A stretch of DNA of 64,000 nucleotides, from positions 1,426,001-1,490,000 of the forward strand of contig NZ_JACTAG010000002.1 in assembly GCF_014763045.1 (NCBI RefSeq). Direction: 5' to 3'. This stretch comes from Sulfitobacter aestuariivivens. GTDB lineage: Bacteria; Pseudomonadota; Alphaproteobacteria; Rhodobacterales; Rhodobacteraceae. A program made the position numbers and the translations under genes. This document shows positions 19,641-23,662 of this stretch, one piece after another. Below the pieces are notes generated by a model that searched no databases, was not told the origin of the DNA, and was given only the letters and a program-made list of their open reading frames with translations. Numbering within the stretch: position 1 is the stretch's first letter; the number at the start of each line of letters is the position of its first letter.

Positions 19641-22600
19641 ATGGAAAAGAGCCTGTTCTCGTTCATCTGGAAGCACTCCAAACGCGAACAGCTGTTCCTG
19701 CTGGCGTTTACGCTGTTCACGTTCCCCTTCCTCTACGCGACGCTGGAATTACCCAAACGCATTATTAACGACGCGATCGGGTCCGAGACGGACACCATCA
19801 GGTTGTTCGACTGGGAGATCAGCCAGGTCAACTTTCTTTTCATTCTCTGTCTGGCCTATCTTGCGGCGGTGGTGGCACATGGTCTGCTCAAGATGCGGCT
19901 CAACACCCGCAAGGGCGTTCTGGCCGAACGCCTGCTGCGCCGCTTTCGGTTTCGCCTGATCAGCCGCATGATGCGTTTCCCGCGCAGCTATTTTGAGAAA
20001 ACCAGCCAGGGCGAACTGGTCAGCATGGTCACCTCCGAAGCTGAGCCTATGGGCGGGCTGATGGGTGACTTTATTGCGCAGCCTGTGTTTCAGGCCGGCC
20101 AGATGCTGATCATTGTGCTGTTCCTGTTTCTGCAATCGGTGTGGTTCGGACTGGCAGGCGTGGCGCTTATCCCGCTGCAGGCTTGGATCATCCCGATGCT
20201 GCAACGCCAGATCAACCAGCTGAACAAGAAACGTATCGTACAGGTGCGCCACCTCGCCGCCGAGATCGGCGAGACCAGCGCCGGTATCACCGATCTGCGC
20301 ACCAACGGCGGCGGGCGCTTCCGGCTGGCGGAGTTCACTGACCGGCTGGGGCTGCTTTTCGATATCCGCTTCCGGATCTACCAGAAAAAGTTCTTCATGA
20401 AGTTTCTCAACAACTTCATCACCCAACTGACACCCTTCTTCTTTTATGCCGTGGGTGGCTATCTGGCGATCAAGGGCGAGATCACGGTGGGCGCGCTGGT
20501 GGCCGCACTGGCCGCCTACAAGGATCTGTCCAGCCCCTGGAAAGAACTGCTGGCCTACTACAACCAGACGCAGGACATGGCCCTGCGCTGGGAAATCGTG
20601 ACCGAACGGTTCGCGCCAAAGAACATGCTCGATAAAAGCCTGTTCGAGAACCCGCCGCTCGAGATCCCGCATCTGCGCGGTGATATAGAGCTGTCGCACG
20701 TGTCAGTGCGCAACGCGGATGGCAATCTGGTGCTGAACGATCTGACCATGACGATCCCTGCCGGGTCACAGGTCGCGATTGAAATGCCGACCCAGGCCGA
20801 ACGCACCGCCATGGCCGAAGTGCTGACCCGCGAGGTGCTGCCCATTCGCGGCAAGGTGACGATTGCGGGCCATGATCTCTCGGGGCTTCATCAATCGGTC
20901 GTGGCGGCCCGGATCGGCTATGCCCACGCCCAACCCTACCTTTTCCAGGGCTCGGTCGGCGACAATCTGTTGATGCCGCTGCGCACCTACCCCCAAACGG
21001 TGATGTGGGACCCCGACCAGAAAGACGACCGCCGCATCGAAGCCCGCCGCGCAGGCAACAGCCCTGACAGCCTCGAAAGCGATTGGCTCGATCCGGAAAT
21101 CGCCGGGCTCAAGTCAGCGGACGAGGTCAACGCCTGGTGGTACAAGGTGACCGAGGCGCTGGGCACTGCGCAGCTGCTGTTTGAGCGCATGCTGAACGCG
21201 CGCTTTATGCCAGAAAATCACCCCGAGCTGGCCAAACGCATCGTTGAGGTCCGCGAAGAGATCCACACTCGGCTGAAAGAAGAAAACCTCGACAAATACG
21301 TCTTTCGGCTGGACCCCGATACCTTCAATCCGGCCATCCCGCTGGGTGGCAACCTGATGTTTGCAGCACCGCGCCGCGACATCAGCCAGGAAGGGCTGGC
21401 TGCAGAAAAGTCCTTTCTCGCGCTGATCGTCGATCAGGGCCTCGCTGAACAGGCCATCGCTATCAGTCAGACGCTGGTGGAAACCCTGCACCAGACCTTT
21501 GGCATGGACGGCACCAGCCACCCGCTCTTTACCTCGCTCGGCATAGACGAAAGCCTTTACGAACGTCTGGTGGATATTGCGGCCCGGCGGCGCGACAAGG
21601 GTGATGCCGCACTGGACGAAGAAGAATTCATGCTGCTGATGACGGTGCCTTTCGCCTTTACGGCAGAACAAATCGGCCCCGCGTTCCCGGAATCCTTCAA
21701 AGACGAGATCCTTCATATCCGCAAAACCCGGGGCGAGGTGTTGCGCGAGCGCGCGAGCGATCTGTTTGTGCCCGTCGCACCGGAAAACTATCTGCCCCGT
21801 CTGACCATCCTTGAAAACCTGCTTTATGGCCGCATTTCGTCGGTTGCGGGCCTGCAGGGCGATCTGGTCCGTGACGTGGTCATTCGCGTGCTGGAAGAAC
21901 ACGGCATGCAACAGATGATCTCTACCGTGCTCTTCGATATTGAAACCACCATCGGGGGCACCAACCTGGCCAAGGTGTTTCAGGAACGCGCGGCCTTTGG
22001 CCGTGCGGCGATCAAACGGCCTGACGTGCTGGTGTTCAATCAATTGCTCTCCGACATGGACGGAGAGGCCCAGACCCAGATCCGCGACCGCCTGAGCAAA
22101 CTGCTGCCGGACACCACGCAAATCTACATCAATGACAGTTTTGCGCTGCCCGATAGCTTCGACATGCATGTCGAAATCAGCGGTGGACGCCTTGATGGTC
22201 TGGCCGGATCGGACCTGCACACTGAGGACGATGACGTCTCGGACGACCTGCGCCGCAAATTGCGCATCATTGGCCGGGCAGAGCTGTTTTCAAAGCTTGA
22301 GCCGCGCAGTCAGCGCCTGCTGGCCTTCGCCGCGCAGTGGTACACGGTCGAGCCGGGAACGCCCGTCTTCTCGCAGGGTGAGCGTGCCGACGCCGCCTAT
22401 CTTTGTCTCTCCGGTCTTGGCGAACTGGCCTACACAGACAGCAATGGCGAACGGCTGCATGTTTCGACGGTCGAACCCGGGCGGCTGATCGGGGACCTTG
22501 CGCTGATCCTCGACGACCCGCGCCAGCTGGACCTTTACGCGATCGAAGAAACCACCTTTCTGCGCATCGGCAAAGAGCAGTTCCTCGCCGTCGTCGAAAA

Positions 22601-22766
22601 CGACAGCGGCGTCCTGCTCAGCCTGTTGCAGACAGTGGCAGGGCACCTCAGTTCAGCAGCCGAGCGGCTGATCGAAGCGCGCATCAAACTCCCCGATGAT
22701 GAGGGCATCATCCCCCGCTCCGAGGCGGAACGCCGCAAGGCCGAGGCGCAAGTGTCAGAGGAATGA
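19641..22766 (+). CDS. ABC-exporter-like protein with degenerate ATPase and C-terminal cyclic-nucleotide-binding domain
   Basis: A 1041-residue inner-membrane protein. Residues 1-330 resemble the type I exporter membrane domain (about six helices; [19 protein letters not shown] is a typical coupling segment). From 348 an ABC fold begins ([22 protein letters not shown]), but each ATPase motif is altered: Walker A reads PTQAERTA (384-391, Lys replaced by Arg, no glycines), the Q-loop Gln is Ala, the signature is NLAKVFQE, Walker B reads [12 protein letters not shown] (Asp to Asn, Glu to Gln) and the H-loop His is Asp. About 270 residues (445-715) are inserted between Q-loop and signature. Residues 870-1000 are a cNMP-binding domain ([23 protein letters not shown]). 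It probably does not hydrolyse ATP. It is coupled to the CPBP protease gene by an ATGA overlap. Confidence 0.88.
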
Positions 22767-23662
22767 TCCTGAAAGCGGACTATGGGCCGCACGCGGCCTT
22801 CATCGCCCCCGCACGCGCCTCCGCTGCGGTGTGGCGCCTGATCGCCGGGCTGGTCTTTATTGTGGTCGCCTACGTCGCACTCAGCCGCATGTTCTTTCAG
22901 TTTCTCTATGACCTTTTTGGCAACGGTGCGGCGGGCTTTTATCAAACCTTGTTCTCGGGCAACACGCCGGGCTCGATGCTGGTCCTTCTGGCCAGCTTCG
23001 GGTTCATGACGGTCTCCGTGGCCGTGACGGTCCGCTTGGTGCACCGGCGCGCGGCACGCAGCCTGCTGGGGCCACCCCGTGCGGCGGTATCCCAGTTCTT
23101 CCGCGTGTTCTGGCCGCTGTGCCTCTTCAGTGTGGTGCTGTTTATGCTGCCGCCCTGGGACATGGGCGGTGACTATGTCCCGAACCTGTCAGTCAGTCTT
23201 TGGCTCGTGCTCTTGCCCGCAGCCCTGCTGGGCGTCCTGATCCAGGTCAGCGCCGAGGAAATCCTGTTCCGGGGCTATATCCAGCAACAGCTTGCCGCCC
23301 GGTTTCGCTCGCCCCTGATCTGGGGCCTGCTGCCCGCTGGGCTATTCGCGCTGGGTCATTATGCGCCCCAAACCACCGGCGAGAATGCCCTGATCATTGC
23401 CATCTGGGCGGGGCTCTTTGGGGTGCTGATGGCGGACATCACCGCGCGGGCGGGCACACTTGGCCCGGCGATTGCACTGCATTTCTGGAACAATGTCTCC
23501 GCGATCGTGATCGTCGGAATGCCAGATGATCTGGGCGGTCTGGCCCTCTACCACACCCCCTTTGGCCTGTCAGACACCGGCGCCCTGCGGGTCTGGCTGC
23601 CCGTGGACTTTGCGCTGATGATCGTGGCATGGCTGGTGGCCCGTCTGGCGCTGCGCCGGTAA
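22763..23662 (+). CDS. CPBP / CAAX-type intramembrane metalloprotease
   Basis: A 299-residue polytopic membrane protein of the Abi/CPBP (CAAX protease) family. The motifs are intact: Glu165-Glu166 and Arg170 in SAEEILFRGY, His199 in FALGHY, and His240 in ALHFWNN. About seven or eight membrane helices are visible. Family members cleave membrane or prenylated proteins, confer bacteriocin immunity, or act as scaffolds. The start overlaps the stop of the ABC-like gene, so the two products are made together. A functional link, for example processing controlled by the pseudo-ABC/cNMP protein, is inferred. Confidence 0.9.
   Translation: MILKADYGPHAAFIAPARASAAVWRLIAGLVFIVVAYVALSRMFFQFLYDLFGNGAAGFYQTLFSGNTPGSMLVLLASFGFMTVSVAVTVRLVHRRAARSLLGPPRAAVSQFFRVFWPLCLFSVVLFMLPPWDMGGDYVPNLSVSLWLVLLPAALLGVLIQVSAEEILFRGYIQQQLAARFRSPLIWGLLPAGLFALGHYAPQTTGENALIIAIWAGLFGVLMADITARAGTLGPAIALHFWNNVSAIVIVGMPDDLGGLALYHTPFGLSDTGALRVWLPVDFALMIVAWLVARLALRR

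Follow-up and report, generated by a model that had tools for sequence, protein, structure and literature searches.

The 64,000-nucleotide stretch of DNA analysed here (the window; Sulfitobacter aestuariivivens contig NZ_JACTAG010000002.1, positions 1,426,001 to 1,490,000 of the forward strand) contains a gene at 19641..22766 on the + strand, with its ATG at 19641 and a stop codon ending at 22766, that encodes a pseudo-ATP-binding cassette (pseudo-ABC) exporter of 1041 amino acids with a fused cyclic nucleotide monophosphate (cNMP)-binding domain. We favour, with a probability of about 0.58, the explanation that this protein is a membrane component that was once regulated by cNMP and works independently of ATP in a glycan pathway of the Alphaproteobacteria, probably one for a surface glycan. 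Established by computation are the dead ATPase motifs of the family within an intact fold, its inverted conservation, its membrane-only relatives, and its co-occurrence and neighbourhood with a set of glycosyltransferase genes.

Fold, motifs and conservation of the pseudo-ABC exporter

The window protein is an ABC exporter of the ABCB (type IV) class by descent and fold. It matches Pfam PF00664 (ABC_membrane) at residues 39-290 (E 9e-22, 78.4 bits against a cut-off of 28) and PF00027 (cNMP_binding) at residues 903-988 (E 2.5e-15, 56.7 bits against a cut-off of 27.5), and reaches ABC_tran only below threshold at residues 365-464 (19.2 against 25 bits). A PF00005 search of the whole genome gave no match at the window locus among the 100 matches listed (150 of 172 candidates scored), and no curated NCBIfam exporter equivalog among the best 25 of 76 families exceeded its own cut-off, the best being MsbA with 123 bits against a cut-off of 602. 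The transmembrane domain (residues 1-325, 19641..20615; this and all further features of the window lie on the + strand) is delimited by the Pfam match, the AlphaFold2 model and the invariant sites, consists of long helices and is the most conserved part of the family. By alignment to solved exporters and by structure match, the nucleotide-binding domain (NBD) falls into an N-terminal half at about residues 345-445 (20673..20975), which contains the Walker A and Q-loop equivalents, and a C-terminal half at about residues 709-853 (21765..22199), followed by the cNMP-binding domain (residues 866-1005, 22236..22655, from the PF00027 match and the AlphaFold2 model).

The full-length AlphaFold2 model has exporter architecture, with a mean predicted local distance difference test score (pLDDT) of 80.8, a predicted template modelling score (pTM) of 0.67 and low confidence at residues 134-146 and 303-315. 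Its NBD part aligns with the NBD of ComA (3vx4) with a Z of 23.6 and a root-mean-square deviation (rmsd) of 2.6 Å over 222 of 239 residues. Modelled alone, the NBD (pLDDT 85.6, pTM 0.77) matches 3qf4_A with a Z of 22.7 and an rmsd of 2.6 Å over 229 residues. The combination of an exporter membrane domain, an ABC fold and a cNMP-binding domain, which the original prediction had read from the sequence alone, is therefore borne out by both the Pfam domains and the match of the NBD fold to ComA. According to the models the NBD fold is whole, while its known chemistry appears to be gone.

This loss is visible in the aligned motifs. Walker A reads MPTQAERTA (residues 382-390, 20784..20810), with the glycines replaced by M382, Q385 and E387, the Lys by R388 and the following Thr389 retained. 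The Q-loop Gln is A430, the LSGGQ signature has become L776-A-K-V-F780 (LAKVF, 21966..21980), the Walker B Asp and the catalytic Glu are N800 and Q801 in VLVFNQ (residues 796-801, 22026..22043), and the switch His is D832 (22134..22136). Only the Walker A Thr and the D-loop Asp are retained of the ATPase motif residues.

For comparison, the window protein was aligned with orthologs from 55 of 80 fetched loci (54-78% identity; n=56), leaving out L119, which has a stop codon in the matched stretch, and 24 further loci of the 80. The Walker A Lys, the Q-loop Gln, the switch His, the catalytic Glu and LSGGQ are each found in 0/56 orthologs; Arg stands for the Lys in 51, a single Asp is found at the position of the Glu, and Phe takes the place of the signature Gln in 44. 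Of the three P-loop glycines, 55/56 orthologs retain none (L111 retains one), and 51/56 have Glu-Arg in place of Gly-Lys. The Walker B Asp persists in 41 orthologs (Asn in 9) and the D-loop Asp in 50, and 33 retain the Ser/Thr that follows the Walker Lys. The altered ATPase motifs noticed in the window protein are thus substitutions common to its homologs, and intact Walker A motifs or catalytic Glu residues, which would have spoken for a working ATPase, occur in none of the orthologs. One detail proved narrower than proposed, in that the Walker B change of Asp to Asn holds for the window protein and not for the family as a whole. Matching open reading frames (ORFs) of 1026-1102 amino acids are present in 80/80 fetched loci; together with the common substitutions they rule out a pseudogene or decay as well as a sequencing artefact, and they agree with the earlier view that the intact frame of 1041 codons is maintained.

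The Lys, Q-loop Gln, catalytic Glu, signature Gln and switch His are also each missing from nine paralogs (0/9), which keep the Walker B Asp in 4/9. A second full-length pseudo-ABC/cNMP protein in the window's own genome (L031, G000:C1:1682515-1685577), with 45% identity to the window protein, is likewise degenerate. A set of 42 distant members was formed from 40 class and phylum loci, picked for family variety and contig room, and L035 and L036 from the order. Here the three P-loop glycines are present in 40, 24 and 39 members, the Walker A Lys in 21 (Arg in 17), the Walker B Asp in 11 (Asn in 19) and the signature Gln in 32, and the Mg-binding Ser/Thr position is retained in 3, as Ser, being Glu in 19 and Asp in 13. 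In these alignments motif degeneration comes in degrees and goes furthest in the clade of the window protein. A separate observation is an otherwise ordinary ABC exporter half (L041:2704-4356) with Arg for the Walker A Lys (GPTGSGRTT), in which the catalytic Glu and the switch His are present.

A feature beyond those described in the original prediction is the interruption of the NBD by about 260 mostly helical residues (446-708, 20976..21764), which were delimited by model secondary structure and are unmatched between the exporter-aligned stretches. The region contains an internal duplication, of which copy 1 (residues 521-612, 21201..21476) and copy 2 (residues 677-767, 21669..21941) are aligned by HHalign over 91 columns with a probability of 95% (E 3.3e-8). 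A shorter version of the pair reaches 94.6%, and control segments reach at most 1.5%. Copy 1 lies within the insert and copy 2, which ends just before the signature position, occupies the place of the helical subdomain of a normal NBD. The Q-loop region was considered as a third copy, but the match is weak (15.6% and 1.5% probability) and is not claimed.

Conservation within the family is inverted, with the membrane domain under the strongest constraint. Across the 56 orthologs, 40% of the membrane-domain sites are invariant (77% mean pairwise identity), against 14% and 10% in the two NBD halves. In the control, an ordinary exporter of the window's genome with 24 same-order relatives, the membrane domain has 31% and the NBD 51% invariant sites; as the two sets differ in divergence (54-78% against 67-84% identity to the query), it is the contrast within each set that counts.

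Link to a glycosyltransferase cluster and membrane-only relatives

The family spans the Alphaproteobacteria. A search with the window protein matched 57/195 genomes of the order, of which the 57th (G092) was rejected as a family member because its match is an ordinary exporter. The family profile matched 129/385 genomes of the class, and at a stricter threshold 28/398 genomes of a phylum sample, comprising 27 in the class and one outside it that matches the membrane domain only. Plasmid records with family members come from Rhizobium, Sinorhizobium, Azospirillum, Ruegeria, Sulfitobacter and others and, where labelled, carry the names 'ABC transporter transmembrane domain-containing protein' or 'cyclic nucleotide-binding domain-containing protein' (marine roseobacters, Azospirillum). 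Relatives are also found in nitrogen-fixing rhizobia, e.g. Sinorhizobium meliloti. The locus tag SMb20813, at one point taken for a Sinorhizobium family member, was dropped, as PMC10945364 calls SMb20813 the msbA homolog.

The strongest functional clue is the near-perfect co-occurrence of the family with a glycosyltransferase, GTd, which points to glycan biology. In the order sample (195 genomes) GTd is present in 56/56 family-positive genomes and in 0/139 others, and two congeners (G165 and G193) have neither a family member nor GTd. In the class sample (385 genomes, 127 with GTd in total) 123 have both and 252 have neither (Fisher p 2e-87, without correction for relatedness).

The cluster to which the clue leads is composed of two MurG-like (GT28-type) and two GT4-type glycosyltransferases, often with a histidine phosphatase, a putative deacetylase and an S-adenosylmethionine (SAM) methyltransferase; the roseobacter version additionally has a uridine diphosphate (UDP)-sugar dehydrogenase. 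In the annotated record of Sulfitobacter indolifex, a nucleotide-sugar dehydrogenase, four glycosyltransferases, a histidine phosphatase and a polysaccharide deacetylase lie upstream of the family member. Neighbourhoods were counted at 45 distant loci (the 42 members above and L206-L208), where relatives of the cluster genes are found near the family member for GTa at 32, GT4b at 30, GTd at 30, GT4c at 26, the histidine phosphatase at 21, the methyltransferase at 17 and the deacetylase at 12; these counts refer to limited flanks and to queries from the S. indolifex cluster, with the methyltransferase query from L193, and the glycosyltransferases are pairwise similar and may cross-match. Several ORFs of the distant loci that are devoid of a Pfam match may be shadow ORFs and were not used. 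In the window's genome the cluster is present in the same gene order at G000:C7 ~375,840-383,600, with 59-79% identity to S. indolifex, and is followed by a methyltransferase gene (49% to L193). The Pfam domains of this copy match as well, the deacetylase weakly and as DUF2334.

Some members of the family consist of the membrane domain only. A profile of these short relatives matched 56/195 order genomes, the same 56 as the GTd-positive set. In 42 of the 56 positive genomes, 51 ORFs are too short for a membrane domain plus NBD, a count in which contig ends and frameshifts were not excluded individually. The fetched membrane-only relatives fall into two groups in the tree, with moderate branch support and with very long branches to the ordinary-exporter outgroup. 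In a genome of 1.6 Mb (L232) a membrane-only member of 345 amino acids, the single family match of that genome, faces four glycosyltransferase-type ORFs and one deacetylase-type ORF; no ORF of at least 90 residues is found in the gap behind it, and GTd is present in the genome. GTd is likewise present with a membrane-only member alone in G183, an assembly in about 140 pieces. L233 was not counted as membrane-only, as its ORF meets a contig end and the remainder lies on another contig of its genome. Four membrane-only relatives (L037, L038, L044 and L049) are extended at the N-terminus by about 80-110 residues and resemble each other in their neighbouring ORFs.

The cNMP-binding domain and neighbouring genes

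The phosphate-binding cassette of the cNMP-binding domain (residues 947-967, 22479..22541) retains Gly951 and Arg961, with Asp952 in place of the Glu of its relatives and Gln962-Leu963 in place of Thr-Ala. Among the 56 orthologs, the Gly and the Arg are present in 56/56, the Glu is Asp in 56/56, and Gln and Leu occupy the Thr and Ala places in 40/56 and 33/56, respectively. At 42 distant loci, a separate cNMP gene is found just downstream of the ABC-like gene in 37 and a fused form in 4; at the remaining locus (L173) the cNMP match is part of a longer ORF that overlaps. The 37 stand-alone proteins have a canonical cassette, with Gly, Arg and Thr or Ser in all 37 and Glu in 35. In the membrane-domain tree the fused forms make up one group (support 95/77; next inner branch 99/92), which suggests one single fusion event, with support just short of the stricter mark of the tool.

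Two arrangements among the distant loci may be recorded beside these. An Apyc1-like metallo-beta-lactamase gene (of the anti-Pycsar family by name) lies directly upstream of a fused pseudo-ABC/cNMP gene at L182:4023-4850, in 1/45 distant loci; this single case would be consistent with a nearby metabolism of cyclic nucleotides. The split pseudo-ABC/cNMP pair of the divergent f42 group has a subtilase-family gene beside it on the opposite strand (L180:2391-4787 and L181:2440-4842).

Directly downstream in the window, a gene for a CPBP (Rce1-like) intramembrane protease (22763..23662) overlaps the stop codon of the pseudo-ABC gene with its ATG (ATGA) and is a conserved neighbour in the Roseobacter clade. 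It adjoins the family member in 73/80 close ortholog loci and 0/45 distant loci, and it is present in 151/195 order genomes, including G165 and G193; it served as a negative control for co-occurrence. Given this distribution, the adjacency is uninformative for the pathway and a functional partnership was rejected. Two Azospirillum records have the genes of an ABC importer (ATPase, binding protein and two permeases) directly downstream of the family member (L207:13259-19430 and L208), and an importer was also noted at L215:1-2689. Relatives of the importer are found in 0/80 flanks of close orthologs. The importer may belong to the same pathway as a further part, or may be a live ATPase in the vicinity.

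Mechanism, rival explanations and significance

In the favoured explanation, the membrane domain would be the working part of the protein and the NBD a scaffold without catalysis, whose helical region has been enlarged and duplicated. The cytoplasmic end would bear a cyclic-nucleotide-binding unit that probably began as a separate protein, encoded immediately downstream, and was fused later. The protein would serve the glycan made by the conserved glycosyltransferase cluster, most likely by passing or positioning a lipid-linked glycan, or by positioning the glycosyltransferases that make it. Cyclic-nucleotide control would have acted at least in the ancestral two-gene form, and the cNMP domain may still be an input. 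The absence of ATP hydrolysis, nucleotide binding, a direct glycan-handling role and the lipid-linked state of the glycan are what we infer here.

Several observations weigh against this explanation. In the class sample, six genomes have the family only and four have GTd only, and a UDP-sugar dehydrogenase is found at 0/45 distant loci. On contig C7, about 1.06 Mb separate the cluster from the window gene, and the cluster is found in 0/80 fetched flanks (at most 7 kb) of close orthologs, so that the glycan link rests on co-occurrence and on relatives. The cNMP site of the window's lineage is devoid of several usual residues. Furthermore, motif decay is milder in the 42 distant members, where the catalytic Glu is present in 21 (Asp in 10) and the Q-loop Gln and switch His in 9 each, and because of this some of these relatives may still bind or slowly hydrolyse ATP. 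Finally, importer relatives occur at the 45 distant loci (Azospirillum records included; ATPase at 9, binding protein at 7, permeases at 7), and in the window's genome an importer binding protein and permeases (52-67% identity) lie a few kb from the glycosyltransferase cluster. The importer result slightly lowers confidence in a motor-less glycan component and slightly raises it for a partner acting in trans.

Such a partner would make the window protein one dead half of a heteromer, with another ABC protein contributing live ATPase sites. TmrAB, TM287/288 and TAP, which are among the best structural matches, are heterodimers of this kind with one degenerate site, and in the Azospirillum records a live importer-type ATPase is at hand. 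However, in these heterodimers one of the two composite sites stays catalytic, whereas the window family has lost the residues of both (Walker A and B, signature and switch), and no live exporter partner is seen. The importer has permeases of its own and is absent from the flanks of close orthologs, and neither the S. indolifex cluster nor that of the window's genome contains an annotated or matched exporter half. A partner from within the family is ruled out in five genomes of the order (G070, G105, G097, G142 and G152), which cannot draw a live NBD from it because each has a single family member; the three that were read (L005, L043 and L046) are degenerate, as is the second family copy in the window's genome. 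A second NBD in trans, named in the original prediction as one of the findings that would overturn it, is therefore not supplied by the family in these genomes, and the heteromer is altogether quite improbable. Residual binding of ATP or ADP as a structural or regulatory ligand at an unusual site, in the absence of hydrolysis, is slightly less probable still. The P-loop glycines of the distant members, their Lys or Arg in 38/42 and the Arg equivalent to Arg388 in 51/56 orthologs would favour it. The replacement of the glycines and of Gly-Lys in the orthologs, and the Glu or Asp at the Mg-binding position in 32/42 distant members, speak against it, and from sequence both P-loop arrangements look hostile to a triphosphate.

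The original prediction itself had proposed a nucleotide-gated channel or receptor. In its broader form, this would be a cyclic-nucleotide-gated receptor, channel or regulator with a role of its own apart from glycan handling. The cNMP domain that is fused or encoded next door, together with the canonical cassette of the stand-alone proteins, is compatible with it, and the sulfonylurea receptors and CFTR (ABCC) are precedents for an ABC exporter fold as a regulator or channel. The near-perfect co-occurrence with GTd speaks against a role apart from glycans, and so do the membrane-only relatives devoid of a cNMP domain, one of which lies beside a glycosyltransferase cluster. In addition, the cassette has drifted in the window's lineage. 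As originally stated the proposal is not supported, and the broader form is unlikely, if the least so of these alternatives to an ATP-independent glycan component.

The position of the family among known systems follows a similar pattern of likeness and difference. ABCB (type IV) exporters such as MsbA, PCAT1, TmrAB and TM287/288 share the order of membrane domain and NBD fold and provide the best sequence and structure matches, whereas the window family is distinguished from them by the loss of every intact ATPase motif, the NBD insert, the C-terminal cNMP domain and the shift of conservation to the membrane. TmrAB, TAP and TM287/288 resemble it in that motif degeneration is tolerated within the exporter fold. 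Sulfonylurea receptors and CFTR retain ATP binding or hydrolysis at one site or more and are devoid of a cNMP domain, while the window family has a cNMP domain and no recognisable ATPase site. The cassette of the stand-alone relatives (G-E-x-A-x-L...P-R-T-A) is like that of HCN/CNG channels, MlotiK1 and CRP; in the window family, by contrast, the cNMP domain sits on an ABC-derived membrane protein, with the cassette changed in the window's lineage. A further comparison is offered by the HetC-type exporters of cyanobacteria, in which a cNMP-binding domain sits on an ABC exporter (PMC10986499), as here; the title of that paper calls HetC a peptidase-based exporter. The window protein differs in having no peptidase domain in the Pfam search and an NBD devoid of its motifs.

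ABC folds with degenerate sites are already known. What appears new, as it was not found in the literature searched, is a family that spans a class, in which the members near the window show no recognisable live site, and which has membrane-only members and a fixed glycan partner; the same search, which did not include subscription papers or preprints, returned no experiment on the pseudo-ABC family. A wider and doubtful, though conceivable, extension is that an ABC-exporter fold was turned class-wide into a motor-less glycan translocator or scramblase, in which the ATPase turned into a scaffold that bears a duplicated helical module, the protein acquired a sensor of cyclic nucleotides, and some lineages lost the motor domain, leaving a bare membrane domain in the same glycan pathway. 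If true, this would amount to a transporter that derives from an ABC exporter yet needs no ATP, and to a new envelope-glycan system controlled by a second messenger. The loss of the residues of both sites in the clade near the window, the constraint on the membrane domain and the relatives devoid of an NBD make it testable whether an ABC membrane domain works in the absence of ATP, and the glycan genes named here offer a first handle on the function of the family.

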